In this document: one piece after another, positions 8,166 through 20,032 of the stretch
Layout of the letters: the number at the start of each line of letters is the position of its first letter
How positions within the stretch are numbered: position 1 is the stretch's first letter
DNA from: a virus
Length of the DNA stretch: 64,000 nucleotides
Direction: 5' to 3' (one strand)
Virus record (IMG/VR): IMGVR_UViG_3300025362_000004
Span: 59,583-123,582 of that record
Notes under the pieces: model-generated
Database searches by the model: none
What the model was told of the DNA's origin: nothing
Seen by the model: only the letters and a program-made list of their open reading frames with translations
Program-made: the position numbers and the translations under genes

Positions 8166-8168
8166 AAT

Positions 8169-8248
8169 GCCATTAAATTAGGTCTGGGAAAACTATTGTC
8201 CTCTAAGGGTAATAGAAGTGGAAGGTTCGAATCCTTCCGTTGGCACCA
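8169..8248 (+). tRNA. tRNA-like gene with CUA anticodon (possible amber suppressor)
   Basis: T-arm GAAGG/CCTTC and CCA end are canonical. An extended 8-bp stem (CTATTGTC/GGTAATAG) closes the loop CTCTAAG, giving CUA. The acceptor GCCATTA/CGTTGGC pairs at only about five positions. It could decode UAG, or be a degraded tRNA. Confidence 0.55.
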
Positions 8249-8251
8249 AAT

Positions 8252-8326
8252 GCAACTATAGTATAACGGATAATACAACATCCTTCTAAGGTGTCCGATG
8301 GGGTTCAAATCCCTCTAGTTGTGCCA
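8252..8326 (+). tRNA. tRNA-Arg(UCU), copy 2
   Basis: Acceptor GCAACTA/TAGTTGT, G73, CCA; loop CTTCTAA, identical anticodon arm to copy 1. Confidence 0.9.
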
Positions 8327-8350
8327 TAAAAAAACAAAGGAAGTGATTAT

Positions 8351-8866: not shown

Positions 8867-8867
8867 T

Positions 8868-8944
8868 GGGGATATAGGCCAATTGGAAGAGTCAATGCGC
8901 TTAAAACGCATAAAGTGCGGGTTCAACTCCCGCTATCCTTACCA
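8868..8944 (+). tRNA. tRNA with UAA anticodon (Leu codons), class I body
   Basis: Loop CTTAAAA on ATGCG/CGCAT; acceptor GGGGATA/TATCCTT, A73, CCA. The variable region is only about 5 nt, whereas bacterial tRNA-Leu normally has a long arm. Confidence 0.75.
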
Positions 8945-8962
8945 AATTCTGGAATGTCAGAT

Positions 8963-8991
8963 TTGCATATTTTTGTAATCTATGGTATAAT
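8963..8991 (+). promoter_or_regulatory. Promoter of tRNA cluster at 9.0 kb
   Basis: TTGCAT (8963-8968), 17-nt spacer, TATAAT (8986-8991), TATGG extension. Confidence 0.75.
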
Positions 8992-9075
8992 TATAATATA
9001 AAGAAGTAAAGTGACTATAACACTATAAAAGGCTCTTTTAATACATTTTGAGAGTAGAAATCAAAATAGGAACAT

Positions 9076-9152
9076 GCGTCTGTAGCCCAATGGAAGAGGC
9101 AAATGATTTAAGCTCATTACAGGTGGGGGTTCGAATCCCCCGAGACGTACCA
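9076..9152 (+). tRNA. tRNA with UAA anticodon, copy 2, class I body
   Basis: Loop TTTAAGC on a perfect AATGA/TCATT stem; T-stem GGGGG/CCCCC; short variable region; A73, CCA. Confidence 0.75.
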
Positions 9153-9155
9153 AAT

Positions 9156-9230
9156 GCGAGTATGGTATAATGGTATTACGACAGTCTCCAAAACTGCAAA
9201 ATGTGGGTTCAAATCCTACTACTCGTGCCA
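9156..9230 (+). tRNA. tRNA-Trp(CCA)
   Basis: Acceptor GCGAGTA/TACTCGT, G73 (Trp identity), CCA; loop CTCCAAA. Decodes the normal UGG codon. Confidence 0.88.
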
Positions 9231-9233
9231 AAT

Positions 9234-9361
9234 ATGCGAATGACGAAACGGTAAACGTAACCCTATTGAATAGGGCGACTGGTTAATAAGATTAACGACA
9301 ATACGTATAAAGTTAATTGAATGCCAGTTATCTGTAGGTTCAAATCCTGCTTCGCATACCA
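9234..9361 (+). tRNA. tRNA-Ser(UGA)-like with a giant variable arm
   Basis: Perfect acceptor ATGCGAA/TTCGCAT, loop ATTGAAT on CCCT/AGGG, normal T-arm and CCA. Between anticodon and T arms lie about 60 nt, closed by ACTGG/CCAGT, three times a usual class II arm. It may hold an insertion. Confidence 0.65.
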
Positions 9362-9364
9362 AAT

Positions 9365-9439
9365 GCACTTATAGTGAAATGGATATCACGAGTCGCCACG
9401 AACGATTTATTGCGGGTTCAAGTCCTGCTAGGTGTGCCA
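9365..9439 (+). tRNA. tRNA-Arg(ACG) with C33
   Basis: Acceptor GCACTTA/TAGGTGT, G73, CCA; stem AGTCG/CGATT with loop CCACGAA. C33 replaces U33. Confidence 0.7.
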
Positions 9440-9440
9440 T

Positions 9441-9518
9441 GGGAGTGTGACGCAACTGGAAAGACGTGTTAGTCTTAGAAACTAAATTTTGGGGGTTCAA
9501 ATCCCCCTACTCCCACCA
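9441..9518 (+). tRNA. tRNA with UAG anticodon (Leu CUA codons), class I body
   Basis: Acceptor GGGAGTG/TACTCCC, A73, CCA; loop CTTAGAA on TTAGT/ACTAA. Variable region about 6 nt. Confidence 0.78.
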
Positions 9519-9537
9519 AAAAAGAAAGAGGTAAATA

Positions 9538-9828
9538 ATGAAAGAAACACTTAATGAATATTGCAAAAGAGTGCATGATTGTATTGATGGAACCTGTGAG
9601 TTTTCAAAACCTTGCTGTCTTGAATTCTTTGAGAAATATAGAAATACAGATATTTCTATAATTAGAGAGGACATTCTTAGCAACACATCTGAAGAAGACA
9701 CAAGTCCGATAGTGAGAATTAGAATGAACAATCTATGGGACATATTAAAGAGAGAATTTGAAGTTCATCTTGATTTTACGAAAGAAAAAGTAGTAAAGAA
9801 ATTCGAAGAATTTTTTGAGGGAGAATAA
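9538..9828 (+). CDS. Hypothetical Cys-containing protein, 96 aa
   Basis: ATG follows AAAGAGGTAAATA. Five Cys lie in the first 30 residues (C8, C15, C20, C26, C27), suggesting a small metal-binding or disulphide-linked head followed by an acidic helical tail. No family recognised. It sits inside the tRNA array, 20 nt after a tRNA. Confidence 0.65.
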   Translation: MKETLNEYCKRVHDCIDGTCEFSKPCCLEFFEKYRNTDISIIREDILSNTSEEDTSPIVRIRMNNLWDILKREFEVHLDFTKEKVVKKFEEFFEGE

Positions 9829-9830
9829 AT

Positions 9831-9908
9831 ATGAAAATTAAATTATTTTTAATTAAACACATTCACAATTTTTTAACAGTATTTTATAGCGTTCTTAAAT
9901 TGCTTTAA
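9831..9908 (+). CDS. Possible small hydrophobic peptide, 25 aa
   Basis: ATG is 2 nt after the previous stop with GGGAGAA upstream. The peptide (MKIKLFLIKHIHNFLTVFYS then VLKLL) is almost entirely one hydrophobic/basic helix, as in small membrane peptides. Short length leaves doubt. Confidence 0.4.
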   Translation: MKIKLFLIKHIHNFLTVFYSVLKLL

Positions 9909-9917
9909 GACGCAAAT

Positions 9918-10001
9918 GAGTGAGTACCCAAGTGGTTTAAGGGGGTAGGTTGCAACCCTACTGCGAAAGCTTCGTTGGTTCAAATCCGACCTCATTCTCC
10001 A
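9918..10001 (+). tRNA. tRNA-Cys(GCA) on a class II, Ser-like body
   Basis: Perfect stem GTAGG/CCTAC with loop TTGCAAC gives GCA, and the discriminator is U73, the main Cys identity base. The D-arm (TACCCAAGTGGTTTAAG) and long variable arm (GCGAAAGCTTCG) are those of tRNA-Ser. It looks like a Ser tRNA converted to Cys identity. Confidence 0.8.
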
Positions 10002-10004
10002 AAT

Positions 10005-10081
10005 GGTCGCGTAGCTCAGTAGATAGTAGCACTTGACTTTTAATCAAGATGTCGCGGGTTTGAGTCCCGCCGCTTCCACCA
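10005..10081 (+). tRNA. tRNA-Lys(UUU), copy 2
   Basis: Perfect stem CTTGA/TCAAG with loop CTTTTAA; acceptor GGTCGCG/CGCTTCC has two mismatches; A73, CCA. Confidence 0.82.
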
Positions 10082-10177
10082 AATAATTAAATAAAGAAAT
10101 AAAAGAAGGTACGATTGTGAGGTTAGACACCAACGTTAAATTGTAGAACATGTTGTTCATCGAGAGCCTTCGAACAT

Positions 10178-10254
10178 TGGCGCGTAGCTTAGTCGGTTAA
10201 AGCCCCGAGCTCATAACTCGGTGACCAGGGGTTCAACTCCCCTCGGGCCTACCA
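10178..10254 (+). tRNA. tRNA-Met(CAU), elongator-like
   Basis: Perfect stem CCGAG/CTCGG with loop CTCATAA; D-arm TAGCTTAGTCGG is elongator-like; acceptor has mismatches; A73, CCA. Confidence 0.75.
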
Positions 10255-10479
10255 CATGACCCTTATTGATACAAGTGTATCCAAGCGTTTTGAAAATGCT
10301 TGCACTAAGAGTATGTAAATAATAATATAGAGTTATTTATAGAGGGGAGACAATACTCCCGAGGGTGCTAATCTATAACAAAAAATCATACTACCACATT
10401 CGAAACCAGTATGGTATCTTTCTAGATAAGATATTAGGTGTGGCGTTAACGGGGATTCAACGATAAAGTCCCTACCAAT
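10255..10479 (+). other. Unassigned structured stretch between tRNAs
   Basis: No ORF. Near 10293-10311 AGCGT-TTTGAAA-ATGCT looks like a Ser(UGA) anticodon arm, and the stretch ends in CCTACCA, but I could not assemble acceptor or T stems. It may be a decayed or interrupted tRNA-Ser. Confidence 0.3.
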
Positions 10480-10566
10480 GGAAGATAAATTGCACTGGCG
10501 TGTAACCTTGATTTGAAACCAAGTGGTTCCGAAAGGGATGGGGATCGATACCTCTATCTTCCGCCA
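10480..10566 (+). tRNA. tRNA-Ser(UGA)
   Basis: Perfect acceptor GGAAGAT/ATCTTCC, G73, CCA; loop TTTGAAA; long variable arm GGTTCCGAAAGGGATGGGG. Confidence 0.85.
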
Positions 10567-10585
10567 AAAAAAACTATGCTTGAAT

Positions 10586-10605
10586 CGCCGCACGCGGTGT
10601 CCTCA
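10586..10605 (-). repeat. GC-rich hairpin repeat, copy 2 (inverted)
   Basis: CGCCGCACGCGGTGTCC, the reverse complement of the GGACACCGCGTGCGGCG form; here it faces the minus strand and is followed by no homing gene. Confidence 0.75.
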
Positions 10606-10638
10606 ATCATATATAAAGTGTTGTCGAGACACATACAT

Positions 10639-10733
10639 GCGACCCTTCCTCGACGTGTTGAGGAGTATCTTGTTCATAAAGAGATACTTACAGCAAGACA
10701 TGAGAATGTCGATAAAAAATTAAAGTCGCACCA
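10639..10733 (+). ncRNA. tRNA-like structure ending in CCA
   Basis: 5' GCGAC pairs with GTCGC just before A-CCA. Inside are CTC/GAG, TATCTT/AAGAGATA (loop containing TTCATA) and CATGAGAATG hairpins in clover-leaf order, but no TTC T-loop. Ends directly before the next tRNA. Possibly a tRNA mimic. Confidence 0.4.
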
Positions 10734-10734
10734 A

Positions 10735-10811
10735 CGCTCAGAGGTCCTAATGGTTAGGACGCTCGCCTCATAAGCGAGAGGTAGTGGGTTCAATTCCCGC
10801 CTGAGCGACCA
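10735..10811 (+). tRNA. tRNA with CAU anticodon, copy 3 (Met or Ile2)
   Basis: Perfect acceptor CGCTCAG/CTGAGCG, A73, CCA; loop CTCATAA on CTCGC/GCGAG. Confidence 0.85.
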
Positions 10812-10813
10812 AC

Positions 10814-10888
10814 GGATTCATAGTTCAATGGAAGAATGGTCGGTTCTTACCCGATAAGATTAGGGTTCAAATCCCTATGAATCCACCA
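10814..10888 (+). tRNA. tRNA-Lys(CUU)
   Basis: Perfect acceptor GGATTCA/TGAATCC, A73, CCA; loop TTCTTAC on GTCGG/CCGAT. Confidence 0.85.
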
Positions 10889-10910
10889 AAAAAGTTTTCG
10901 GAGGTGTAAT

Positions 10911-11237
10911 ATGGAACATAACAGAGCATATCATCGATACCAAACAGAAGTAAAAAAAAATAGACTAATAAAAATAAACAAGCACGTTGGTTTTAATTTC
11001 GTTAATGGTCATTTTCGCAAGGGGAAACTTCATTGTAGTTGCCCAATGTGTGCAACAAAAACAAATACAAAACATGGGACATATGATGGCGGACATAAAC
11101 CATCAGAATTAAAAAGACTTTACGATATTAGTGAAGTAGTTCTTGAAGAATATAATGAAGCGTTTATAGCGTTAGCTGAGTTCGATGAATTTATGGAAGA
11201 CGAGTGCGGCGATTCATACTTAAAAACAGTAAAATAA
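10911..11237 (+). CDS. Small protein with zinc-knuckle-like cysteines, 108 aa
   Basis: ATG follows TTCGGAGGTG. A basic N-terminus contains HCSCPMCATKTNTKHG (res ~43-58), a C-x-C-x-x-C plus His arrangement likely to bind zinc; a helical acidic tail follows. Similar basic, Cys-containing small proteins occur in many Firmicutes phages near tRNA arrays without known function. It lies between tRNA genes. Confidence 0.7.
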   Translation: MEHNRAYHRYQTEVKKNRLIKINKHVGFNFVNGHFRKGKLHCSCPMCATKTNTKHGTYDGGHKPSELKRLYDISEVVLEEYNEAFIALAEFDEFMEDECGDSYLKTVK

Positions 11238-11359
11238 TTAAATATGCTGAAGTTAAAGAGTAAGATACGACCGCAAACTATATCTTACTTATGGAGAGCT
11301 CCTCCCTTTAATAGAGTCTTTTGCGGGAACTCGAGCGTGAAGCTTAGGCATTAACATAT
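11238..11359 (+). other. Structured spacer upstream of tRNA-Ser(GCU)
   Basis: No ORF. GTAAGATA (near 11260) pairs with TATCTTAC (near 11278) around a GACCGCAAAC loop region, with further GAGCTC-type pairings. Probably removed during tRNA maturation. Confidence 0.3.
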
Positions 11360-11446
11360 AGAGAGTAATCCATGATGGTGATTGGGTCCGCCTGCTAAGC
11401 GGCACGACGTGAAAGCGTTACGGTTCAAATCCGTTACTCTCTGCCA
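11360..11446 (+). tRNA. tRNA-Ser(GCU)
   Basis: Perfect acceptor AGAGAGT/ACTCTCT, G73, CCA; loop CTGCTAA; long variable arm CACGACGTGAAAGCGTTA. Confidence 0.9.
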
Positions 11447-11453
11447 AAAGAAA

Positions 11454-11762
11454 ATGACATATAAGGAAAATAGATTGGCCGCGACTGCACTGCAGAGTGG
11501 CGCGACGATTACTATTCAAGGCTTTGGTAATTCAATGACACCTATTTTATCTTCTGGACAAAAAGTGCTAGTGGCACCTATTACAGAAGAAATAAAATTA
11601 AAGAAAAGGGACATTGTTTTATGTAAAGTTAGAGGTAATTATTATTTGCATTTAATAAGTGCAAGAAAAGGAAATCAATTCCAAATTAGTAATAATCATA
11701 AGCACGTGAATGGTTGGATTACTATTAAGAACATATTTGGAGTAGTAACAGAAAGATTATAA
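11454..11762 (+). CDS. S24/S26-type peptidase-like protein, 102 aa
   Basis: The segment QGFGNSMTPILSSGQKVLVAP (res ~22-42, here split) contains the Ser of the S-M-x-P motif found in signal peptidases and LexA/CI-type peptidases, and KKRDIVLCKVRG (~50-61) matches the region of the catalytic Lys strand. At 102 residues it is only the catalytic fold, without an HTH or membrane anchor. ATG starts 8 nt after a tRNA. Substrate unknown; a self-cleaving or protein-processing role is inference. Confidence 0.65.
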   Translation: MTYKENRLAATALQSGATITIQGFGNSMTPILSSGQKVLVAPITEEIKLKKRDIVLCKVRGNYYLHLISARKGNQFQISNNHKHVNGWITIKNIFGVVTERL

Positions 11763-11773
11763 TTCTTGATACA

Positions 11774-11797
11774 CCGCGTGCGGCGATTCAAGCAATG
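11774..11797 (+). repeat. GC-rich hairpin repeat, copy 3
   Basis: CCGCGTGCGGCG within CTTGATACA...GATTCAAG; the flanks CTTGA/TCAAG extend the palindrome. No homing gene follows; a tRNA-Val does. Confidence 0.8.
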
Positions 11798-11871
11798 GGC
11801 GCGTAATTCAGCGGGAGAAATTCTGTTTTACAAGCAGAAAGTCGTAGGTTCAATCCCTACCGTGCCCACCA
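11797..11871 (+). tRNA. tRNA-Val(UAC), copy 2
   Basis: Acceptor GGGCGCG/CGTGCCC, A73, CCA; loop TTTACAA. Confidence 0.9.
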
Positions 11872-11891
11872 TTAAAAAATCGGAGGTTAAT

Positions 11892-12143
11892 ATGATACAT
11901 AAAAATATTGAGAACCAAAGAAGAATGAAAAAACAATGCAATAGTAAAGGACAAGAATATAATCCATTCTGTGCATGGTATAATGAAGATTTAGGTCGTT
12001 ATACTAGAGACGATAAATATCGCATGAGAATAAAACGGTTTTTAAAAAAAGCGAGTAATAAAAAAATTAGAAACTATAAAGGAGAATTAAGCGAAGGCTG
12101 TAATCATAGAAAATTATTTGATTACTGGTGGGAGTTATTCTAG
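11892..12143 (+). CDS. Small basic protein of a WW-ending phage family, 83 aa
   Basis: Shares with the protein at 17671-17913 the pattern KKxSNxxIRxxKxxLxxGxxxRKxxDxWW, so the two are paralogues. Both are very basic and end with a Trp pair and aromatic residues. Such small basic proteins are common in Firmicutes phages; their function is not established, and nucleic-acid binding is only suggested by charge. CGGAGG precedes ATG. It lies just after a tRNA. Confidence 0.75.
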   Translation: MIHKNIENQRRMKKQCNSKGQEYNPFCAWYNEDLGRYTRDDKYRMRIKRFLKKASNKKIRNYKGELSEGCNHRKLFDYWWELF

Positions 12144-12161
12144 ACCAGAAAGGAAAACAAC

Positions 12162-12815
12162 ATGATTACAAGATTAAAAGAAATAACAAAAGTATATACA
12201 GACCCTCATTTCGGGCATGATAGATTAAGAATTTTGGCTAGACCAGAGTTTGAAAGTCTTGAACAAATGCACGAAACAATGATAAAGGAATATAATTCAG
12301 TAGTTAAAAATACTGATGTAGTTCTTTGGCTTGGAGACCTTGGATTTAGAGATGCAGTAAAAGAAATTTTACCACAACTTAAAGGTTATAAAATCCTTAT
12401 TTTAGGTAACCACGATAACTATTCAAAAACATTCTACGCAGAGTATTTTGATGAAGTTTATGACCACCCATTATACTACAATAGAAGAATAGTATTCTCT
12501 CATATTCCTATAATGGTAAGCCCAGGCATACTAAACGTGCATGGACATACACATAACATCGTATTAAAAAGTGACCAACATTATAACATATGCGGCGAAA
12601 TTGTAGGATGGAAGCCAATCAACATTAAGAAAATTGTTTTAATGATAGGTAAAATTCCTACTGAAAATATTCACTTTTTACAAGAGTGGTATGCAGAAAT
12701 TCAAGTTCCTAATATGACTTATGATAGCAACGATGATTTAGTGTTGCGTGAAGATGGAACTATTGATGCAGAAAAAACACTAATGGCAAAATATAAGAAA
12801 AGAGCAAGCAACTAA
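12162..12815 (+). CDS. Metallophosphoesterase (calcineurin-like), 217 aa
   Basis: Motifs: TDPHFGHDRL (res ~13-22) with the D-x-H metal ligands, LGDLGF (~57-62), LGNHDNY (~82-88), FSHIP (~109-113) and HGHTHN (~124-129). This is the compact phosphoesterase type often found in phages. The DPHFGH form resembles a subgroup acting on nucleic acid or nucleotides, but the substrate cannot be read from sequence. The last ~60 residues are an extra tail. AGGAAAAC precedes ATG. Confidence 0.88.
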   Translation: MITRLKEITKVYTDPHFGHDRLRILARPEFESLEQMHETMIKEYNSVVKNTDVVLWLGDLGFRDAVKEILPQLKGYKILILGNHDNYSKTFYAEYFDEVYDHPLYYNRRIVFSHIPIMVSPGILNVHGHTHNIVLKSDQHYNICGEIVGWKPINIKKIVLMIGKIPTENIHFLQEWYAEIQVPNMTYDSNDDLVLREDGTIDAEKTLMAKYKKRASN

Positions 12816-12818
12816 AAT

Positions 12819-12847
12819 TTGATTTTTATTATAATTTGTGTTATAAT
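12819..12847 (+). promoter_or_regulatory. Promoter of the 12897 gene
   Basis: TTGATT (12819-12824), 17-nt spacer, TATAAT (12842-12847) preceded by TTGTG. Confidence 0.8.
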
Positions 12848-12896
12848 TATAGTATATAAGAAATAAGAGCCTTTAAATAGGCAAGGAGAGTGTATT

Positions 12897-13091
12897 ATGG
12901 CAGATTTATTAAAACAATCAAAACAGTATCGTGTTAATAGCGAGGCTGAAGTTGCAGACTTAATCGACTTAGCAAAAGATGAAAGTCAAGGAACTATTGA
13001 ATTTAGTAGAAAACATAAAACCAAGAAGTCAAAAGGTGAAATAGTTGACGAATGGTGAGTTGTTGAAATAACTGAAAAGTTCGTAGAATAG
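12897..13091 (+). CDS. Small protein with an in-frame UGA (Trp), 64 aa
   Basis: ATG follows GGCAAGGAGAG. Reading stops at TGA 13056-13058 after 53 codons. If UGA is Trp, the frame continues EWWVVEITEKFVE to TAG at 13089. The extension looks like a natural final beta-strand, as in small Lys-rich phage proteins ending 'KTKKxKxE...xVxIT'. I therefore annotate the long form. A short form from termination at UGA would differ by 11 residues, so both products are possible depending on tRNA-Trp(UCA) supply. Confidence 0.55.
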
Positions 13092-13104
13092 TAGAATTAT
13101 AGAT

Positions 13105-13133
13105 TTGAAATATATTGTAGTTTATGATATAAT
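13105..13133 (+). promoter_or_regulatory. Promoter of the 13175 gene
   Basis: TTGAAA (13105-13110), 17-nt spacer, TATAAT (13128-13133), TATG extension. Confidence 0.8.
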
Positions 13134-13174
13134 ATATTATAAAGGTAAGAAATATATTTAAAAAGGAGACCTCA

Positions 13175-13369
13175 ATGAAGAAATCATTAAAAGTATTTGA
13201 AGTTCATATAAAGTTTAAATATATGACAAATGATATAGGTACTGAAGTCGTGACAAAAGATGTCGTAGAGGTTGAATTCGCACAAACAAAACAAAAATTA
13301 TTAAAAATGTTAAAGAAAAAATTTAGATATTCAACAATTTTAGAATTAGAAATTATAGAACTAATATAG
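13175..13369 (+). CDS. Hypothetical small protein, 64 aa
   Basis: AAAAGGAGACC precedes ATG. The product alternates Val/Ile and charged residues as in a small beta-sheet protein with a Lys-rich helix near the C-terminus. No family recognised. Single gene behind its own promoter; a tRNA cluster follows. Confidence 0.65.
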   Translation: MKKSLKVFEVHIKFKYMTNDIGTEVVTKDVVEVEFAQTKQKLLKMLKKKFRYSTILELEIIELI

Positions 13370-13496
13370 ATTTTAACTCCTGAGTATGAGTATAAACTAT
13401 AGGGCGCCCGCAAGGGATAATTGTGAGATAATAATAACCTCTGCCCCCGTTATCGGCTCACTCGACGTTGTAGGTTTTCGTTAAACCTTCTTAAAT
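13370..13496 (+). other. Non-coding stretch upstream of tRNA-Glu
   Basis: GC-richer than the flanking genes, with GCGCCCGCAAGG and GTTATCGGCTC segments. No ORF; likely leader or processed RNA. Confidence 0.25.
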
Positions 13497-13572
13497 GTCG
13501 GCGTGGTGAAGCGGTCAACACATTGCCCTTTCAAGGCAACATGCACGGGTTCAAGTCCCGTCGTCGATACCA
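13497..13572 (+). tRNA. tRNA-Glu(UUC)
   Basis: Acceptor GTCGGCG/CGTCGAT, A73, CCA; loop CTTTCAA on TTGCC/GGCAA. Confidence 0.9.
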
Positions 13573-13581
13573 AAAAGAAAC

Positions 13582-13674
13582 TAAATGACTACTAGATAAA
13601 TACTAGTTTTGAGCGGAAGCAAGAAGAATATAAATGTGCCTTAGACGTTAAGTGGGCTGTATTAAAGTCATTTA
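13582..13674 (+). ncRNA. Small structured RNA between tRNAs
   Basis: Ends TAAATGACT (13582-13590) and AGTCATTTA (13666-13674) form a perfect 9-bp closing stem. An inner ACTAG...CTAGT hairpin follows the 5' strand. No ORF. Discrete stem-closed 93-nt unit; no family recognised. Confidence 0.5.
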
Positions 13675-13681
13675 CATATAT

Positions 13682-13758
13682 GCCGACTTAGCTCAGATGG
13701 CTAGAGCGCGTCACTTGTAATGACGATGTCGAGGGTTCAATTCCTTTAGTCGATACCA
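13682..13758 (+). tRNA. tRNA-Thr(UGU), copy 2
   Basis: Perfect stem CGTCA/TGACG with loop CTTGTAA; acceptor GCCGACT/AGTCGAT with one mismatch; A73, CCA. Confidence 0.87.
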
Positions 13759-13761
13759 AAT

Positions 13762-13836
13762 GCTCCTATGATGAAATCGGTATCATAATTGCCTTGTAAG
13801 CAATATTTCGGGGTTCAAATCCTCGTGGGAGCACCA
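13762..13836 (+). tRNA. tRNA-Thr(UGU), copy 3
   Basis: Acceptor GCTCCTA/TGGGAGC, A73, CCA; loop CTTGTAA on ATTGC/GCAAT. Confidence 0.88.
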
Positions 13837-13858
13837 TTAAAAAGAATAACTTTAGTTA

Positions 13859-13880
13859 CGCCGCGTGCGGCGACTCAAGC
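13859..13880 (+). repeat. GC-rich hairpin repeat, copy 4
   Basis: CGCCGCGTGCGGCG followed by ACTCAAGC, 42 nt before the promoter of GIY-YIG gene 2; same arrangement as copies at 7173 and 53227. Confidence 0.8.
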
Positions 13881-13913
13881 ATAGAATAAATATACCAAAA
13901 TGGTTGCACAGAT

Positions 13914-13942
13914 TTGACTTCTTTATAAGATTGTGATATAAT
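13914..13942 (+). promoter_or_regulatory. Promoter of GIY-YIG gene 2
   Basis: TTGACT (13914-13919), 17-nt spacer, TGTGATATAAT ending 13942. The following AAATTATAAAGATAAAAAA matches the leader of GIY-YIG gene 1. Confidence 0.85.
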
Positions 13943-13973
13943 AAATTATAAAGATAAAAAAGAGGTGTTTATT

Positions 13974-14648
13974 ATGTTAGGTTTTATTTATATAATTAAA
14001 AATAATATAAACGATAAGGTTTATATCGGTAAGACTTATCTTGCTGTCGAAAAAAGATTTGAAGACCATAAAAAAGATTGTTTTAGAGAACGTAATTCTG
14101 AAAGACCAATTTACAAAGCAATGAAAAAGTATGGTTTAGAAAATTTTTCAATATCAAAAATCGGAGAATATGAAGAAGGACTACTAGAAGAAAAAGAAAT
14201 AGATTTCATAAAAAAATATAATTCTTATATTGGCTTCGACAATTCCCAAGGTTATAACGCAACACTAGGTGGAGACGGAAGAAGATATCTCAACTTATCT
14301 GAAGAAGAAGTTATAGCAAAATATAAAGAGTTAAAATTTGTTAATAAAACCGCAGATTATTTTAATTGTTCTTATGACTCAATAAGAATAATACTGGACA
14401 ACAATAATGTAGAAATTAAAAAATATACTGAAATTGGTTTAGGTGGTCAATTCAAGAAAGAAAAAGTTACAATGATGGACAATAAAGGAAAATTTCTTTA
14501 TTTTGATTCAGTAATTGATGCCGCAAAATATTTAGTAGATAATGAGATTGCTAAATGTAAAGTTAATTCTGCTAGAGTTAGCATAGGAAGAGCAATATCA
14601 GGTTTAAGAAAAACATATCTAGGTTTTCATTGGTCAAAAGGCCAATAA
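13974..14648 (+). CDS. GIY-YIG homing endonuclease with NUMOD-like C-terminus, 224 aa
   Basis: N-terminal GIY-YIG domain: GFIYIIKNNINDKVYIGKT (res 3-21), R29 in VEKRFEDH, E73 region (LLEEKEIDFIKKYNSY) and the terminal GYNATLGGDG. Then an HTH (NKTADYFNCSYDSIRIIL) and a NUMOD1-type repeat (YFDSVIDAAKYLVD ... RVSIGRAISGLRKT ... YLGFHWS), typical DNA-binding modules of homing endonucleases. Own promoter; surrounded by tRNAs. It is likely mobile and free-standing, not intron-borne. Confidence 0.93.
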   Translation: MLGFIYIIKNNINDKVYIGKTYLAVEKRFEDHKKDCFRERNSERPIYKAMKKYGLENFSISKIGEYEEGLLEEKEIDFIKKYNSYIGFDNSQGYNATLGGDGRRYLNLSEEEVIAKYKELKFVNKTADYFNCSYDSIRIILDNNNVEIKKYTEIGLGGQFKKEKVTMMDNKGKFLYFDSVIDAAKYLVDNEIAKCKVNSARVSIGRAISGLRKTYLGFHWSKGQ

Positions 14649-14651
14649 TAC

Positions 14652-14730
14652 AGTGGAGTAGAGCAGTGGTCAGCTCGTCAGGTTCATACCCTGGAGGTCG
14701 CGTTTGGTTCGAATCCCGCCTCCACAACCA
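14652..14730 (+). tRNA. Initiator tRNA-fMet(CAU)
   Basis: Position 1-72 is an A-A mismatch as in initiators, the D-arm GAGCAGTGGTCAGCTCG and 3' ACAACCA match bacterial fMet, and the anticodon stem TCAGG/CCTGG closes TTCATAC. The T-stem appears to carry a TTT insertion. Confidence 0.8.
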
Positions 14731-14744
14731 AAGAAAATAAAACA

Positions 14745-14797
14745 TTAGAGCCTATACTTACTTCAAATACATTCAGCGTAGATTAGTTAGGCCTCTA
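14745..14797 (+). ncRNA. Y-RNA-like small RNA, unit A
   Basis: TTAGAG-CCTA (14745-14754) pairs with TAGG-C-CTCTAA (14788-14797), a 10-bp stem with one bulged C. Conserved CTTACTTC follows the 5' strand (14757-14764). An inner TAC/GTA hairpin completes it. Lies 20 nt before the 14818 gene. Bacterial and vertebrate Y RNAs also have a terminal stem with a bulged C. Confidence 0.55.
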
Positions 14798-14817
14798 AAA
14801 AAAAGGAGATGTTTTAA

Positions 14818-16782
14818 ATGAAAGAAAAGATTTTAATAAGACGTAATTATTTTTTAGGTAATACAAGTTATGAAGATAGCAATTACCGTAGATATTACGC
14901 AGCACAATTACTAAACAAGTTTGGTATCCTAGTTGATAGACCAAGCATGGTAACACGTAGACACGTGGAATTGACTAGTGAATTGTTTGGAGTTAATATT
15001 CCAAAGAGTTTTTATAGTAATCCACAAGATATGAGATATTTCACTTGTAGTGAATTACTTGTTGAACAAGTAATTTCATATTTTAACATTGAGTTTGTTA
15101 CAGGCGTAAGTTCTGACGATGAAAGTTCTTTTGATAGAATAGAAATCTTTAGAAAAGCCCTACCAAATTATAGAGAAGGCGATGAAGTTGTTTTTAGAAA
15201 CTTTAGAATCCTTACTGATAATGAAGCAAGTCCAATATTAGAAGAAGTTTATAGTAACTTAGCAAGTTATACAAGAAAATGGAATGAAACTGAAAATGAA
15301 GAATTTGTTTGGTTATTCAATAACCATGTCGCGAATGACACAAGAATAAAAAGCAAGGACAATGCTATTGCAATGTTCAACGCTTATCCATGCCGTTTAT
15401 TTGGTCATTCATTAGACCAAAAAGATGTTGTAAAATTAAGCGTTGAAATGATTGGTAGAGAAGAAAAACACTTTTCTTATACTCCTGAACAAAAGCAAAA
15501 ACTTGGCTATGCTTTAGAATCTTGCTATAGTGTTCCATTGACAAATAAACAAGCAAAATACTTTAATACTATTTCTAGAAAATTAGGATATAAAAGCAAT
15601 GAAACAAACGACCGTAGTCCATATAAAATGGCAACAGAGTATATGAATAAGGGTAGAGTTGTTGATGCTGCAAGAATTTTTGCAAGAAATGGTTCTTTGC
15701 TTGAAAGAAACTTAATATGGTTACTTTCAAGAGCTGATATGCAAGAAGCACAAGAAATCATGAAGTTCGTTAAAATCAAGAATCCAATTGTTGGTATTCA
15801 ATTCTTCAATGGCTTAATTGCTCAAGGAGAAAACAATGGGAGTAGAACCTTCAAATTCTACAAAAATAGATTGATTAGACAACACATTGAAACAGACGTA
15901 GAAGCAAGATACAGAAAATCTGTTCTATCTTTAGGTATGAAAAAATACTTAAAGAAAGTAATGAATGAAAAAATTGATGAATATTACAAGAATTTACCAA
16001 GTCTTGGAAAAGTATATGTTGATGATGAATTTGAAAATATTGGTTTACCAATGAATACAAGTGCATCTGGAACAGGAATTGATGTATTACCAGTAGGTAG
16101 TAGATTAATGATTACTGAAGATTACATCAGAACATTCTGTTATTGGAACGGACCAAGAGATATTGATACAAGTGTAATTTTCATACATAGAGATGGTCAT
16201 CAAGCTACATTCTATTGGGGAAATTATTACGCAAAACCATTTGGACGTAGCGCACTATATTCTGGCGATGACAGAAGTAAAAACGGTGCAGAATATGGAG
16301 ACTTTAAAATTAGTGAACTTAAAGCATTAGGTTATACACACGCTATTTATACACTAAATGGTTATAGTGATAATCTTGACGTTGGGGAAATTTATTGTGG
16401 TTATCAAAATAAAAAAGACCTACACACACAAGCTTGGGATGCTAAGAATATTCAAATGAAAATTAAAGTTCATGGAGATAGTAGAAGTTATGCTGGATTC
16501 GCTATTGATTTTGAGACAAGAGAAATCATTGTTTTAAATCAAATGGTAGACAGTAAAAATCGTGTCGTTAATCCCGAAACATTAAAATCATTTGAACCAT
16601 ATTTAAAATCTAATTTCTTAGATACATTTAATGTTGCTAGAATCGCAAGATTAAGAGGAGAAGTTGTAACAGACCCATCTAAAGCAGATTATGTATTTAG
16701 TAGAGATTATTTTGAAAATATAAAAGGTCAAAAAGTTATCAGACCATCTGATATCGAAAAGATTGTTAAGTTATTAAATTAA
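14818..16782 (+). CDS. Large protein with C-terminal TerD-like domain, 654 aa
   Basis: Residues ~440-560 carry the TerD-like pattern: RTFCYWNGPRDIDTSVIF, then YSGDDRSKNGAEYGDF, then YTHAIYTLNGYSD, resembling the Ca-binding beta-sandwich of tellurite-resistance proteins. Upstream, LPSLGKVYVDDEF (~399-411) and LPVGSRLMI match the linker of large bacterial cytoplasmic proteins of this class, whose N-terminal ~400 residues are helical repeats (for example RVVDAARIFARNGSLLERNL). Function of the class is unknown. All Trp are TGG. Five Y-RNA-like units flank the gene, one upstream and four downstream, so I infer an RNA-binding partner role comparable to Ro60/Rsr. AAAAGGAG precedes ATG. Confidence 0.75.
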   Translation: MKEKILIRRNYFLGNTSYEDSNYRRYYAAQLLNKFGILVDRPSMVTRRHVELTSELFGVNIPKSFYSNPQDMRYFTCSELLVEQVISYFNIEFVTGVSSDDESSFDRIEIFRKALPNYREGDEVVFRNFRILTDNEASPILEEVYSNLASYTRKWNETENEEFVWLFNNHVANDTRIKSKDNAIAMFNAYPCRLFGHSLDQKDVVKLSVEMIGREEKHFSYTPEQKQKLGYALESCYSVPLTNKQAKYFNTISRKLGYKSNETNDRSPYKMATEYMNKGRVVDAARIFARNGSLLERNLIWLLSRADMQEAQEIMKFVKIKNPIVGIQFFNGLIAQGENNGSRTFKFYKNRLIRQHIETDVEARYRKSVLSLGMKKYLKKVMNEKIDEYYKNLPSLGKVYVDDEFENIGLPMNTSASGTGIDVLPVGSRLMITEDYIRTFCYWNGPRDIDTSVIFIHRDGHQATFYWGNYYAKPFGRSALYSGDDRSKNGAEYGDFKISELKALGYTHAIYTLNGYSDNLDVGEIYCGYQNKKDLHTQAWDAKNIQMKIKVHGDSRSYAGFAIDFETREIIVLNQMVDSKNRVVNPETLKSFEPYLKSNFLDTFNVARIARLRGEVVTDPSKADYVFSRDYFENIKGQKVIRPSDIEKIVKLLN

Positions 16783-16786
16783 AATT

Positions 16787-16862
16787 ATATAGAGCCGATG
16801 CTTACTTCAAATTTCACAGGCCTTTAAAGCCTGTACCATACAATTCTAGCTCGGCCTTATAG
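16787..16862 (+). ncRNA. Y-RNA-like small RNA, unit B
   Basis: Stem GCCGA/TCGGC with extra C on the 3' side, conserved CTTACTTC at 16801-16808, inner ACAGGC/GCCTGT hairpin with CTTTAAA loop. Begins 5 nt after the TerD-like gene. Confidence 0.55.
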
Positions 16863-16880
16863 TAAAAATAATAAAATAGA

Positions 16881-16978
16881 ACCAATGCTTACTTCAAATT
16901 TAATCTAATCCGCTGATGAGGTTCGAATCCTCCTAGTCGTCTAATGGTAAGACCGCGGACTCTAAAAGACAGCTTGGT
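16881..16978 (+). ncRNA. Y-RNA-like small RNA with permuted tRNA-like module, unit C
   Basis: Terminal stem ACCAA (16881-16885) / TTGGT (16974-16978), then CTTACTTC (16888-16895). Inside, TCCGC (16909-16913) pairs with GCGGA (16955-16959), acting as an anticodon-type stem that opens inward. Between the strands lie a T-arm (GAGG-TTCGAAT-CCTC, 16918-16932), CTAGTC, and a D-arm (GTCT...AGAC, 16939-16953). The T-arm comes before the D-arm, so this is a circularly permuted tRNA mimic with no free acceptor end. That is the layout described for bacterial YrlA RNAs. Confidence 0.65.
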
Positions 16979-16999
16979 CATAATTAAAAAATAAATAGA

Positions 17000-17085
17000 A
17001 CCGAAACTTACTTCAAATGGATATTACAGGTTCGATTCCTGTATTAGGTCCCGAAAGGGTTGCCTGATATATAAAATAGTTCGGT
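17000..17085 (+). ncRNA. Y-RNA-like small RNA with permuted tRNA-like module, unit D
   Basis: Terminal stem ACCGAA (17000-17005) / TTCGGT (17080-17085), CTTACTTC (17007-17014). Inside are a T-arm (TACAGG-TTCGATT-CCTGTA, 17025-17043) followed by an acceptor-like hairpin TTAGG...CCTGA capped by CCC-GAAA-GGG. The acceptor is sealed by a GNRA tetraloop, so it cannot be charged. Confidence 0.65.
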
Positions 17086-17105
17086 CAAAAATAAAAATAA
17101 ATAAA

Positions 17106-17159
17106 TTAGAGCCTAAGCTTACTTCTAAAACAATTCGATGTTAATTAGCTAGGCCATCT
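17106..17159 (+). ncRNA. Y-RNA-like small RNA, unit E
   Basis: Stem GCCTA (17111-17115) / TAGGC (17150-17154), CTTACTTC (17118-17125), small ACA/TGT inner hairpin. Aligns along its whole length with unit A. Confidence 0.55.
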
Positions 17160-17179
17160 TAAAAAGAAGACTTCAGTTA

Positions 17180-17200
17180 CGCCGCGTGCGGCGACCTAAG
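17180..17200 (+). repeat. GC-rich hairpin repeat, copy 5
   Basis: CGCCGCGTGCGGCG followed by ACCTAAGCC. A degenerate GTCGCGGCGACTTGGC lies 20 nt further on. No homing gene follows. Confidence 0.8.
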
Positions 17201-17255
17201 CCTTGAATAAAAAGTCGCGGCGACTTGGCTTTAATAAAAGCCTAAAACCGCATTT

Positions 17256-17331
17256 GGTCCTAAAGTGTTAATGGTGTGCATGGTAGCTTGTCAAGCTATA
17301 GGGGCGGGATCGAAACCCGCTAGGACCGCCA
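17256..17331 (+). tRNA. tRNA-Asp(GUC), copy 2
   Basis: Perfect acceptor GGTCCTA/TAGGACC, G73, CCA; loop TTGTCAA. T-loop is ATCGAAA instead of the TTC form. Confidence 0.85.
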
Positions 17332-17405
17332 ATAAAATATGTAATTTGAAAATATAGAGTGTCATATAAATCCTCTAGTTTTATGAATTATAAGAGAGGT
17401 GTAAT

Positions 17406-17603
17406 ATGAACGGTATAGTAAAATGGTTTAATGCTGAAAAGGGTTATGGATTTATTACTGATGAAGATGGAAATGATGTGTTCGCACATTTTAGTCAAAT
17501 TCAAATTGATGGATACAGAACTTTAGAAGCAGAACAAGCAGTAACATTCGACGTAGCTGAAGGTCAACGTGGCCCACAAGCAGAAAACATTGAATTAGTA
17601 TAA
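17406..17603 (+). CDS. csp: Cold-shock protein (CspA family), 65 aa
   Basis: The whole protein is one cold-shock domain. RNP1 is KGYGFITDE (res 12-20) and RNP2 is VFAHFSQI (26-33), both with the aromatic residues that stack on single-stranded [14 protein letters not shown] precedes RNP1 as in CspA/CspB. Length is standard. It probably melts RNA structure and helps translation; its location between tRNA-Asp and tmRNA fits an RNA-chaperone role. GAGAGGTG precedes ATG. Confidence 0.95.
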
Positions 17604-17623
17604 TCTAAAAAGAGGTGTAGTAA

Positions 17624-17647
17624 ATGAGGAAATTAAGTATCTTCTAA
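17624..17647 (+). CDS. Possible leader micro-peptide, 7 aa
   Basis: ATG has its own AAGAGGTG site and encodes MRKLSIF before TAA, directly upstream of the ribosome binding site of the next gene. It may be a leader peptide or a gene remnant. Confidence 0.3.
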   Translation: MRKLSIF

Positions 17648-17670
17648 GGTTTTAATTAGAGGTGAAAGAA

Positions 17671-17913
17671 ATGATTAATGGACACAAAGAAACACAAAAA
17701 AGATTAAAAAAGGAATATAATAATTATTGGAAAAGCCAAGTTTCTTATAGAAAAGATGGCGATTATTATGTTGAATGCGGTAGTAATTATCCTAAAAGGA
17801 CTAAAAAAAGTTTAAAAAAGTTTAGTAATAGACGTATTAGACAATGTAAAAGAGATTTAGATGACGGTAATTATTATCGAAAAGTAGTAGATATGTGGTG
17901 GATTATATATTAG
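17671..17913 (+). CDS. Small basic protein of the WW-ending phage family, 80 aa
   Basis: Paralogue of 11892-12143: both contain KKFSN/KKASN, RIRQ/KIRN, a D/E-x-G turn, then RK and D-x-W-W near the end. Start ATG 17671 is chosen for AGAGGTG seven nt upstream. Strongly basic, no Cys pair. Function unknown; charge suggests nucleic-acid or ribosome contact. A tRNA-Ile follows 12 nt after the stop. Confidence 0.75.
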   Translation: MINGHKETQKRLKKEYNNYWKSQVSYRKDGDYYVECGSNYPKRTKKSLKKFSNRRIRQCKRDLDDGNYYRKVVDMWWIIY

Positions 17914-17925
17914 TTCACTACCCAT

Positions 17926-18002
17926 TGGAGTGTAGCTCAGAAGGATAGAGCGCACGCCTGATAAGCGTGAGGTCGAGGGTTCAATTCCCTCTTCTCCAAC
18001 CA
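17926..18002 (+). tRNA. tRNA-Ile(GAU)
   Basis: Loop CTGATAA on a perfect CACGC/GCGTG stem; acceptor TGGAGTG/TTCTCCA, A73, CCA. Ends 3 nt before tmRNA. Confidence 0.9.
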
Positions 18003-18005
18003 AAC

Positions 18006-18397
18006 GGGGCTGTTTATGGATTCGACAGGGTAAAAACGGATACGATTAGCATAGGTTCGATGGAACTAAAACACACGATAAAACAATCGGAAACTTATTT
18101 AACACAGTTATTTCTTGGGTAAAGGGTTTATTCTCTCCAAGAGTAGCACTTTCAGTCTAAGAAGAGACAGAACGAATTTATAACTATTACCTATAAGTTA
18201 TAATTTCGCCAGAATATAGGATACGACTACTGACTAATACAAAGTGGTAAGAGATAAATTGTATTGAACGATTCGTAATAAAGTTTGTATGTAGTAAAAA
18301 GCGAAAAGTTCTAAAACCCTCTAAAAACATACTAACTATGTAGAATATGGTATCACGAATATCGTGGACAGGGGTTCAAATCCCCTCAGCTCCACCA
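18006..18397 (+). ncRNA. ssrA: Transfer-messenger RNA (tmRNA)
   Basis: The 5' end GGGGCTGTTTATGGATTCGA and the 3' end GGGGTTCAAATCCCCTCAG plus CTCCACCA are the conserved tRNA-like ends of tmRNA. The acceptor GGGGCTG/CAGCTCC has the G3-U70 pair needed for alanylation. The tag frame probably resumes near GAT 18077 and ends at TAA 18158-18160; it begins DKTIGNLFN and ends RVALSV, a hydrophobic degradation-type tail. The tag is about 27 residues, longer than the usual 8-15 but like the long tags of some Mollicutes. The product frees stalled ribosomes together with SmpB, which I do not see in the window. Confidence 0.92.
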
Positions 18398-18415
18398 AAA
18401 AAGGAAAGAAGGAAT

Positions 18416-18790
18416 ATGATAATGATAAGAAAATTAATTTTAGGTAATACAGGCTCTGGAAAAACTACAGAATTATGCAAGATAGCCGCAAAAGGTTTGC
18501 TTGATGGTGAAAATATACTTTTTATAAAAGATGGTGAAAGTAAAGACTTCTTAGTTAATAGAGTATTACATTTCGTTGCGCCTGCTTTAGGTTTTAGTTC
18601 TAAATTACAAATAAAAGGCACAGTTTTATTCATAAATAAAAATGAACTAAATGGTATTAGAGGAATGGCTTTTGATACTATATTATTTGATAATTATGAA
18701 CGACAAGACATATTTAATATCCCTGCAAAAATAGGAATATTTACTCAACAAATGAATAATACAGAATACGCAACAACAGTAATATTATAA
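18416..18790 (+). CDS. P-loop protein, 124 aa
   Basis: Walker A motif ILGNTGSGKTTE (res ~8-19) at the N-terminus; TILFDNYER (~90-98) could be the Walker B strand. It resembles zonular-occludens/VirB4-like small P-loop ATPases of phages (GNTGSGKTT), but is short and lacks other motifs. ATG follows GAAGGAAT, 18 nt after tmRNA. Function unknown. Confidence 0.75.
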   Translation: MIMIRKLILGNTGSGKTTELCKIAAKGLLDGENILFIKDGESKDFLVNRVLHFVAPALGFSSKLQIKGTVLFINKNELNGIRGMAFDTILFDNYERQDIFNIPAKIGIFTQQMNNTEYATTVIL

Positions 18791-18801
18791 AGGAGAGCAT
18801 T

Positions 18802-19002
18802 ATGGCAAAGATATTTTTTAAACAACCAAAAGCAAAGAAGATTAGAGGCGGATATATAAAACCAAAAGGTTTGACTTATAGCCGCGAACCATTTATCAAA
18901 AAAGTATTTGGGGAAGTGCGAGAATTCGCAAATCGTCAAGAATACAAAGCTTTCTATAGACGTAACAGAAGAAATAGAAAACTAGGGATTGAAATAGTAT
19001 AA
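18802..19002 (+). CDS. Small highly basic protein, 66 aa
   Basis: AAAGGAGAG precedes ATG. About one third of residues are Lys or Arg, ending FYRRNRRNRKLGIEIV. No family recognised; the charge suggests nucleic-acid binding. Its TAA overlaps the next ATG (TAATG), so the two are coupled. Confidence 0.65.
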   Translation: MAKIFFKQPKAKKIRGGYIKPKGLTYSREPFIKKVFGEVREFANRQEYKAFYRRNRRNRKLGIEIV

Positions 19003-19373
19003 TGATACTAAGAGATGTTTTAGATGAAGCAAAAGAGGGAGATTATTTCGTATTAGACGCAGAATTGCCAGGCGATATTATCAACCAATTAGATGAAATT
19101 GAGTTAGATTACAATGAAAAATACACTTGTTGCTCAGGCGATAAAGATAAAGTATTTGATTATTGTGGCGACGAAGACCTATTAGAAGAAGAAGTTACTG
19201 GTTATAATAAAAGTGGTAACAGAATTTATATCACAATAGGAGAGTTTGGTTCATACGAAATCTATGAACATTATTTAGAAATCGTAGCAACAAAAGTTAT
19301 GAATTACGAGCAATGGCTTGATGATTATAAAGACGCATTTAAAGAATTAGAAGATTTACAGAAATACAGATAA
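19002..19373 (+). CDS. Hypothetical acidic protein, 123 aa
   Basis: Starts within the previous stop. Strongly acidic, with two Cys pairs near CCSGDKDKVFDYCGDED. No recognised family. RNase P RNA begins right after its stop, so this gene and rnpB probably share a transcript. Confidence 0.7.
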   Translation: MILRDVLDEAKEGDYFVLDAELPGDIINQLDEIELDYNEKYTCCSGDKDKVFDYCGDEDLLEEEVTGYNKSGNRIYITIGEFGSYEIYEHYLEIVATKVMNYEQWLDDYKDAFKELEDLQKYR

Positions 19374-19672
19374 AGAAATTGACCTAACGCACTAAGGTGA
19401 GGAAAGTCCGAACTACTATATCGCTTAACGCCGTATCTCTAATAAAGTATGGCAGGTATGGAACAGAGACGAGTAAATTTATTTGGCTTATTATTATATT
19501 ATTTTACACCGAGTATAACGGGTAGAATATTATACATGTGATTGTTACGACGTAAGCAAATAAATGGATATGAAACGGCTGTATCTGGCGAGGTAGCAAG
19601 TCAAACTATGGTAGACGCAAATAGGTAGATGTTAGGATAAAACAGAATTCGGCTTACTAATTTTTTTACTTC
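19374..19672 (+). ncRNA. rnpB: RNase P RNA (bacterial type)
   Basis: The universal P4 5' strand GAGGAAAGTCCG is at 19399-19410, and the conserved 3' segment ACAGAATTCGGCTTA at 19642 onward supplies the other strand and the end of P4/P1. Between them are GAAACGGCTG and AGCAAGTCAAAC-type segments, the latter followed by TAGGTAGATG, in the order of bacterial RNase P RNA. Length (~290 nt) is short of the usual 350-400, so some peripheral helices are missing. It would cut tRNA 5' leaders with the host RnpA protein; no rnpA gene is visible. Confidence 0.9.
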
Positions 19673-19697
19673 TGAAATAAAATACAAAGGAGAATAT

Positions 19698-19892
19698 ATG
19701 TTAGCAATATTTTTAGTAATGGCGCCTTTATTGGCATCAGCATTAACAATTTTAGCAATAACAATTGGAGCGGCGATATTGTTTTATATAATGTATCATA
19801 CATTCCATGGAGATTTACCATTTATAATGAAAACCGTAATAGTAATTTTACTAATAATTGGTTTTACATTATTAGGAATAGCAATTTTATAG
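19698..19892 (+). CDS. Small membrane protein, two TM segments, 64 aa
   Basis: Hydrophobic segments at res ~1-32 and ~43-64 flank a short polar loop (YHTFHGDLPF). AAAGGAG precedes ATG. Holin-like size and topology, but there is no lysis gene nearby, so I only call it a membrane protein. Confidence 0.65.
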   Translation: MLAIFLVMAPLLASALTILAITIGAAILFYIMYHTFHGDLPFIMKTVIVILLIIGFTLLGIAIL

Positions 19893-19908
19893 GGTTGAGG
19901 TTAGAACC

Positions 19909-19955
19909 GCCGCAGAAACTATCCCTTTCAAAAAAAAGTTTTAACAGCGGCACCA
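19909..19955 (+). ncRNA. Mini tRNA-like element ending in CCA
   Basis: GCCGC (19909-19913) pairs with GCGGC directly before A-CCA; AACT and AGTT form an inner stem. 47 nt. Could be a tRNA remnant or an acceptor mimic. Confidence 0.35.
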
Positions 19956-19957
19956 AT

Positions 19958-20032
19958 GAAAATATAGTGTAATGGTTAGCACACTGAGTTCCGAACTCAG
20001 GAGTAGGGGTTCAATTCCCCTTAGTTTCACCA
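19958..20032 (+). tRNA. tRNA-Arg(CCG)
   Basis: Perfect stem CTGAG/CTCAG with loop TTCCGAA; acceptor GAAAATA/TAGTTTC with one mismatch; A73, CCA. Reads CGG. Confidence 0.85.

Follow-up and report, generated by a model that had tools for sequence, protein, structure and literature searches.

A putative catalytic RNase P RNA in the tRNA array of a tailed phage, with counterparts in other tRNA-rich viral contigs

The 64,000-nucleotide stretch analyzed here (the window) spans positions 59,583 to 123,582 of the viral record IMGVR_UViG_3300025362_000004 and contains, within a large tRNA array, a gene of about 300 nt for the RNA of ribonuclease P (RNase P). By sequence and predicted fold, the element at positions 19371-19672 is an RNase P RNA and a member of the bacterial RNase P RNA superfamily. 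We consider it quite likely that a tailed phage, probably of Bacillota, encodes a catalytic RNase P RNA in a region of tRNA, transfer-messenger RNA (tmRNA) and GOLLD RNA genes, uses the RnpA protein of its host, and thereby matures a nearly complete set of tRNAs of its own. The central claim of the original prediction, a phage-encoded RNase P RNA, is borne out by a significant covariance match on a contig that carries phage hallmark genes.

That claim had started from the two signature ends of bacterial RNase P RNA, in the right order and about 230 nt apart. Both motifs were located, with GAGGAAAGTCCG at 19399-19410 and ACAGAATTCGGCTTA starting at 19642, giving a spacing of 231 nt in the expected order. 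Infernal searches with Rfam models under permissive filters aligned the class A model RNaseP_bact_a (RF00010) over model positions 1-367 to window positions 19371-19672 on the plus strand (43.6 bits, E = 2e-12, in a 451-base stretch), and a scan of the whole record (123,582 bases) returned this as the sole RNaseP_bact_a match (E = 1.3e-13). The class B model RNaseP_bact_b (RF00011) also matches, at 37.3 bits and E = 4.9e-10. The gene ends fall at about 19371 and at 19668 or 19672. Its place in the RNase P RNA superfamily (Rfam clan CL00002) follows from these significant class A and class B matches, from conserved regions (CR) I and V, which form helix P4 with a bulged U and 8/8 pairs, and from the presence of P1-P5, P7 and P10 together with J11/12, J12/11, J5/15 and CR-IV. 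The loss of the conserved core on folding, which had been named beforehand as grounds for abandoning the prediction, was not seen, since P4, J3/4 and J2/4 are intact.

Helices were assigned by hand along the Rfam alignment (Table 1) and evaluated by a shuffle test in which the motifs were held fixed, six variable segments were shuffled 5000 times, and each shuffle was given its best helices in the same places. The observed helix score was 47.5, compared with 28.0 ± 2.6 for the shuffles, the highest of which reached 38.5; none of the 5000 scored as high, and the resulting z of 7.4 is somewhat flattering because the tested helices had first been found in this same sequence. Among single helices, P1 (0.0004), P10 (0.008) and P2 (0.016) stood out. 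Plain thermodynamic folding of the region gave no signal (z = -0.18), as expected with a pseudoknotted RNA, and was not used as evidence.

Comparison with other viral RNAs adds a line of evidence from covariation. P4 is paired at 8/8 positions in all seven phage RNAs by means of six different strand pairs; nine cells are changed on both sides, 0/500 shuffles scored as high, and sliding the alignment by one column abolishes the pairing. The closest relative of the window RNA among 28 cellular and six other phage RNAs is that of contig L009, with a score of 178 vs 100 for the best cellular RNA. The two differ by compensatory changes in P5, P8 and P15, with little or no change in J11/12, P7 and the loops L8 and L15 (P1-P3 of the L009 RNA resisted assignment by hand). 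Their arrays also have in common a phosphoesterase (44% identity), an 83-residue stretch (45%) and a homing endonuclease (41%). On the basis of the nearest-relative score, the compensatory changes and these shared array genes, both RNAs probably trace back to one ancestral phage array and were retained while their sequences drifted. These alignments indicate that the core of bacterial RNase P RNA, comprising its substrate-recognition and catalytic domains, is kept through compensatory change. The nearest cellular relative in the compared set, L035, is listed with RNAs of the Candidate Phyla Radiation (CPR)/Patescibacteria.

Judged by its genes, the 123.6-kb contig is a genuine tailed phage. 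One half of the record carries a phage-type topoisomerase II, DnaB, primase, RecJ and a DNA polymerase, and the other half a tape measure protein, a portal and a virion protein. The DNA polymerase is nearest to that of the SPbeta group of Bacillus phages (43% identity), a kinship from which the host is probably a member of Bacillota; a search for relatives of this polymerase returned only the same phage (L014), in a stretch outside the RNA. Cellular contamination, in the form of mis-binned host DNA or a small bacterial genome, such as one of CPR, taken for a virus, might be suspected from the CUAAUAA L8 loop and the size of the RNA, both common to CPR and Mycoplasma RNase P RNAs, and from one GenBank "phage" record that turned out to be a bacterial scaffold with rnpB. 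It is nevertheless extremely improbable and was rejected, since phage structural and replication genes, among them the portal and tape measure genes, lie on the same single contig as the RNA, with no rnpA found there. Moreover, the homologous L009 array contains both an RNase P RNA and the neighboring genes, and the arrangement also occurs in other phages that have terminase and portal, the RNA being joined to structural genes in each of G000, G001, G003 and G004.

The genomic setting suits an enzyme of tRNA maturation. More than 40 phage tRNAs had been predicted beside the RNA; the array itself stands, and its number is corrected to the 39 called by ARAGORN, with a tmRNA and an opal-suppressor-like tRNA in addition. 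Because every tRNA in the array encodes its CCA and the spacing is often 1-4 nt in the ARAGORN calls for the window, each such junction would call for cleavage at a tRNA 5' end. A search beside the window RNA found no terminator on the same strand, and promoter-like sites near it were no commoner than in shuffles, which is consistent with co-transcription with the array.

As for the protein partner, RnpA (PF00825) was found neither in the window's record nor in the six other viral records described below, with positive controls; these six records may, like this one, be fragments. The search for rnpA in the rest of the genome that the original prediction had called for came back empty over this record. 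An RNA-free RNase P of the HARP type (PIN_5, PF08745) was likewise not found in the window's record, again with positive controls. The RnpA of one bacterium can often function with the RNase P RNA of another, and for this reason a holoenzyme composed of the phage RNA and host RnpA appears likeliest. The RNA would be transcribed together with the array and then fold, binding host RnpA through its P2-P3-P4/CR-IV-CR-V core. The T loop of a precursor tRNA would be recognized by J11/12-J12/11 and its CCA by the L15 GGU, and cleavage would take place at the 5' leaders of the phage precursors and at the junctions between their tRNAs. In this manner, the phage could mature its tRNA set during infection when the RNase P of the host is in short supply, a poor match or out of action. 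A plausible selective reason would be that the phage keeps a tRNA supply to itself when the tRNAs of the host, or its processing, come under attack.

The case in the window is not isolated. Scanning IMG/VR with degenerate RNase P RNA motifs, followed by Rfam checks, located six further viral contigs with an RNase P RNA, all within tRNA arrays. The rarity foreseen by the original prediction stands, and the RNA is not unique. Two of them exceed the class A cut-off (L010, 182.5 bits; L007, 132.7), and four are significant under the cut-off: L005 (68.8), L003 (26.0), L009 (32.8 with the class B model) and L004 (56.0 with the archaeal model). The tRNAs number 40 in G001 (19 amino acids), 34 in G004 (19) and 23 in G003 (16); the shorter contigs have 16, 14 and 5. 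G001, G003 and G004 encode a terminase, a portal or a tape measure protein; the phage-type genes found on the short contigs L004, L009 and L010 are confined to replication, modification or homing, and no structural gene was found there. The GC content of the contigs ranges from 35% to 60%, which indicates that several lineages are involved. RNase P RNAs thus recur in the tRNA arrays of unrelated phages. In all six of the other contigs a tRNA follows 1-12 nt beyond the 3' end of the RNA, and cleavage at that tRNA would free the ribozyme's 3' end as well.

Other candidates from these searches were set aside. L057 and L058 are the L009 phage again. The pattern matches L006 and L008 have no tRNAs, lack RNase P motifs outside the pattern and were judged by eye to be coding sequence. 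A tmRNA hinted at in L003 by a cut-off match did not hold, as none scores over the cut-off and the weak matches fall on tRNAs. Queried by blastn with four phage RNAs and the window RNA, a collection of 50,697 phage records yielded no phage rnpB, blastn being weak for such RNAs; the RNase P matches were one Salmonella scaffold and one scaffold labeled Bacteriophage sp. with bacterial genes beside rnpB. GenBank MT835480.1 (L056, "Bacteriophage sp.") looks bacterial, with a class A RNase P RNA of 249.8 bits and, by eye, a folC-like open reading frame (ORF). A plasmid search with the L010 RNA gave no match. In L004, the RNase P RNA at 1287-1575 fits the archaeal model best, and a UvsX-like recombinase and a DNA methyltransferase lie nearby; L004 is possibly a virus of archaea.

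Several observations weigh against an active phage RNase P, apart from the partial circularity of the helix test. The class A and class B scores of 43.6 and 37.3 bits lie under the Rfam gathering scores of 100 (RF00010) and 97 (RF00011), and as a result the RNA is missing from the default Rfam scan of the window, which returned tRNAs, the tmRNA, GOLLD and a c-di-GMP riboswitch. The covariance check thus gave a divided answer, with a match that is significant and a score below the cut-off, an outcome that had been listed among those that would speak against the prediction. P6, P9, P13, P14, P16, P17 and P18 are absent in the Rfam alignment and the hand fold, and P3 and P15 have just 3 bp each, so that the RNA may be weakly active or rely on protein. 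Because the record is linear and possibly a fragment, a phage RnpA could lie beyond its ends. Finally, the next tRNA downstream of the window RNA is 285 nt off, with a small ORF between, and the self-release layout seen in the other contigs is missing here. Class membership is affected as well: RF00010 fails on its gathering score and on P6, P16/P17, P13/P14 and P18, RF00011 on its gathering score, and the hand fold, in which the apical P12 region is unsettled, leaves no space for P5.1 or P18. Since the family cut-offs are not reached and class-specific helices are lacking, the RNA is filed under neither class A nor class B.

Two other explanations were weighed. The RNA might be a decoy or regulator that retains the RNase P fold, binds host RnpA or tRNAs and diverts or inhibits host RNase P; the missing peripheral helices and minimal P3 and P15 would fit this role, as would the lack of a detected phage RnpA, which requires competition for the host protein. 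We regard it as unlikely, given that the catalytic core, the bulged U, the GCAAG of J5/15 and the GGU of L15 are all retained and that a location among CCA-encoding tRNAs suits an active enzyme; furthermore, CPR RNAs without P13/P14/P16/P17 serve as the only RNase P RNA of their cells (PMC8172020). The gene might instead be a decaying, functionless copy captured from a host along with its tRNA cluster, as its score under the Rfam cut-off and its AU-richness could suggest. However, every core helix pairs, many through non-consensus but complementary pairs, changes are compensatory relative to L009 and, in P4, across the phages, and the nearest relative among the compared RNAs is a phage RNA and not a cellular one; such decay is very unlikely.

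A catalytic phage RNA working with host RnpA is accordingly retained as the preferred reading, and its targets can be considered further. It could mainly process phage RNAs other than tRNAs, such as the tmRNA, a GOLLD transcript with a permuted tRNA or leader RNAs, leaving tRNA maturation to the host. The tmRNA and the GOLLD RNA with its permuted tRNA-Leu do lie in the same region, yet no tmRNA was found in the other phages, whose RNase P RNAs still stand in tRNA arrays, and this division of labor has little probability. More tentatively, and with doubts outweighing confidence, we propose that tRNA-rich phages repeatedly acquired an RNase P RNA that serves as an integral maturase of the tRNA operon: contained in the primary transcript, it would form a hybrid enzyme with host RnpA and free its own 3' end by cutting the tRNA next to it. 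If true, such phages would not depend on host rnpB for their tRNA supply, for instance when facing tRNA-cleaving defenses.

RNase P RNA is a near-universal cellular ribozyme, and a virus-encoded version would be the first viral one traceable in the open-access literature. Phage takeover of translation would then reach from tRNAs to the tRNA-making enzyme itself. The window would also offer a natural reduced RNase P RNA with its likely substrates defined in the same region. In addition, the question of why phages carry tRNAs becomes testable: do attacks on host RNase P or host tRNAs during infection oblige the phage to bring its own processing?

Table 1. Window coordinates of the RNase P RNA gene, its structural elements and neighboring features.
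Feature	Position	Strand	Details
RNase P RNA gene (phage rnpB)	19371..19672	+	~300 nt; RF00010 match and helix shuffle test
P1 5' strand	19371..19380	+	pairs with 19659-19668, 10/10
P2 5' strand CCUAAC	19383..19388	+	pairs with GUUAGG 19631-19636, 6 bp
P3, cut down to a 3-bp hairpin	19390..19399	+	hand fold
CR I and P4 5' strand AAG[U]CCGAA, bulged U	19399..19412	+	P4 8 bp
P5 5' strand CUAC	19413..19416	+	pairs with GUAG 19593-19596; 4 bp; compensatory in L009
P7 5' strand	19421..19425	+	pairs with 19587-19591, 5 bp
P8 hairpin, loop CUAAUAA	19430..19453	+	7 bp
P10 5' strand	19453..19459	+	pairs with 19581-19587; ends compete with P8/P7; 6 bp safe (6-7)
J11/12 ACAGAGACGAG, by homology the recognition module for the pre-tRNA T loop	19463..19473	+	
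Extended P12	19477..19565	+	basal helix 9 + 4 bp, large apical part
J12/11 UAUGAAACGG	19569..19578	+	hand fold
P5 3' strand and J5/15 (GUAGCAAG)	19593..19600	+	J5/15 GCAAG
P15/L15 with GGU, by homology the pairing site for tRNA 3' CCA	19600..19616	+	P15 3 bp
CR IV (UAGGUAGAUG) and P2 3' strand	19625..19636	+	
CR V and P4 3' strand (ACAGAAUUCGGCUUAC)	19642..19657	+	
tRNA array	3734..20032	+	39 tRNAs, all encode CCA; 19 amino acids, Ser missing
tmRNA	18006..18397	+	Rfam and ARAGORN
ORF directly 5' of the RNA	19002..19373	+	123 aa, no family; overlaps first 3 nt of the RNA
Phosphoesterase within array	12162..12815	+	44% identity to a phosphoesterase of the L009 array, where an RNase P RNA is found too

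The surroundings of the array hold further features of interest. An RNA-repair-like gene at 2767-3531 is a relative of the phosphatase part of an RNA ligase family, and the region 21220-21702 encodes a phrog_1818 protein, one member of whose scanned set matches the HAD domain of RNA repair proteins. Three tandem tRNA-like elements of about 70 nt at 20132-20342 have an acceptor stem, a T arm, CCA and one short arm sharing CGACATAATTGCG; the first of them, when tested, was not called as a tRNA, and the CGACATAATTGCG motif was not found in the other phage loci compared. A stretch of about 1.9 kb without long ORFs lies at 21730-23590, where the Rfam GOLLD match covers the last 512 nt only, and its 5' part is probably the remainder of a very large GOLLD RNA. 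Within the GOLLD RNA, positions 23137-23230 hold a circularly permuted tRNA-Leu(AAG), in which the T arm/acceptor/CCA half precedes the acceptor/D/anticodon half; joining the halves at the repeated AAACAATACATWTG gives a sequence that ARAGORN recognizes as a tRNA of 77 nt.

Elsewhere in the record, the late minus-strand genes (L011-L012; window 61159-64000 (-)) contain in-frame TGA, and their long ORFs require TGA readthrough (tape measure protein, 1802 aa). The early genes, unlike the late ones, avoid TGA, a pattern read as an early/late code switch. The opal-suppressor-like tRNA, with anticodon UCA, lies at 29286-29363. A c-di-GMP-I riboswitch at 27427-27501 stands immediately 5' of a phage ORF (27532-28005), and a phage protein of 628 aa at 25459-27345 contains six Listeria-Bacteroides repeat domains.

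Compared with known RNase P RNAs, the window RNA has in common with class A (RF00010) CR I-V, the bulged U of P4, P1-P5, P7, P8, P10, P12, P15 and the GGU of L15, and differs from it in its score of 43.6 bits against a cut-off of 100, its lost helices and its phage-encoded position within a tRNA array. It shares with the class B and Mycoplasma RNAs (RF00011) the J11/12 sequence ACAGAGACGAG, the L15 loop AAAxUxxGGUA, the CUAAUAA L8 loop and a similar length, and differs in its score of 37.3 bits, in its phage origin and in P5.1, P10.1, P15.1 and P18, which were not seen by eye. The resemblance of ACAGAGACGAG, the L15 loop and CUAAUAA to Mycoplasma and CPR RNAs is to be read with the fact that the reference set was chosen by one such motif. 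CPR/Patescibacteria RNase P RNAs score below Rfam cut-offs, required lowered thresholds for detection, and many are without P13, P14, P16 and P17 (Lui et al. 2021, PMC8172020); they are chromosomal, and two thirds of them lack the CCA-binding UGG motif that the window RNA keeps (PMC8172020). The original prediction had taken the compactness of the RNA as a possible novelty, which does not hold, since the excised Mycoplasma RNAs used for comparison are about 276-301 nt long and CPR RNAs commonly lack P13/P14/P16/P17; size and helix loss fall inside the known range, and the RNA is not unusually small.

Mobile or viral settings have been described for parts of this arrangement. Only tRNAs and a tmRNA were reported for the megaphages of the CPR study (PMC8172020). 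Mycobacterium austroafricanum carries extra rnpB homologues, probably horizontally acquired and possibly in a mobile setting beside an endonuclease gene, in bacterial genomes for which phage origin was not demonstrated (PMC9569102). Phage and phage-derived tRNA arrays with GOLLD or ROOL RNA are known (PMC6582537, PMC12286853); the window array resembles them in its tRNA cluster and GOLLD, and no RNase P RNA was reported in those arrays. No phage RNase P RNA was found in the open-access full-text literature, a coverage that leaves out subscription papers and most preprints, and a phage-encoded RNase P RNA appears not to have been described before. New here, relative to these systems, are the lack of an accompanying RnpA in the records examined, a 3' end that usually abuts a tRNA, and the recurrence of RNase P RNAs in unrelated tRNA-rich phages.
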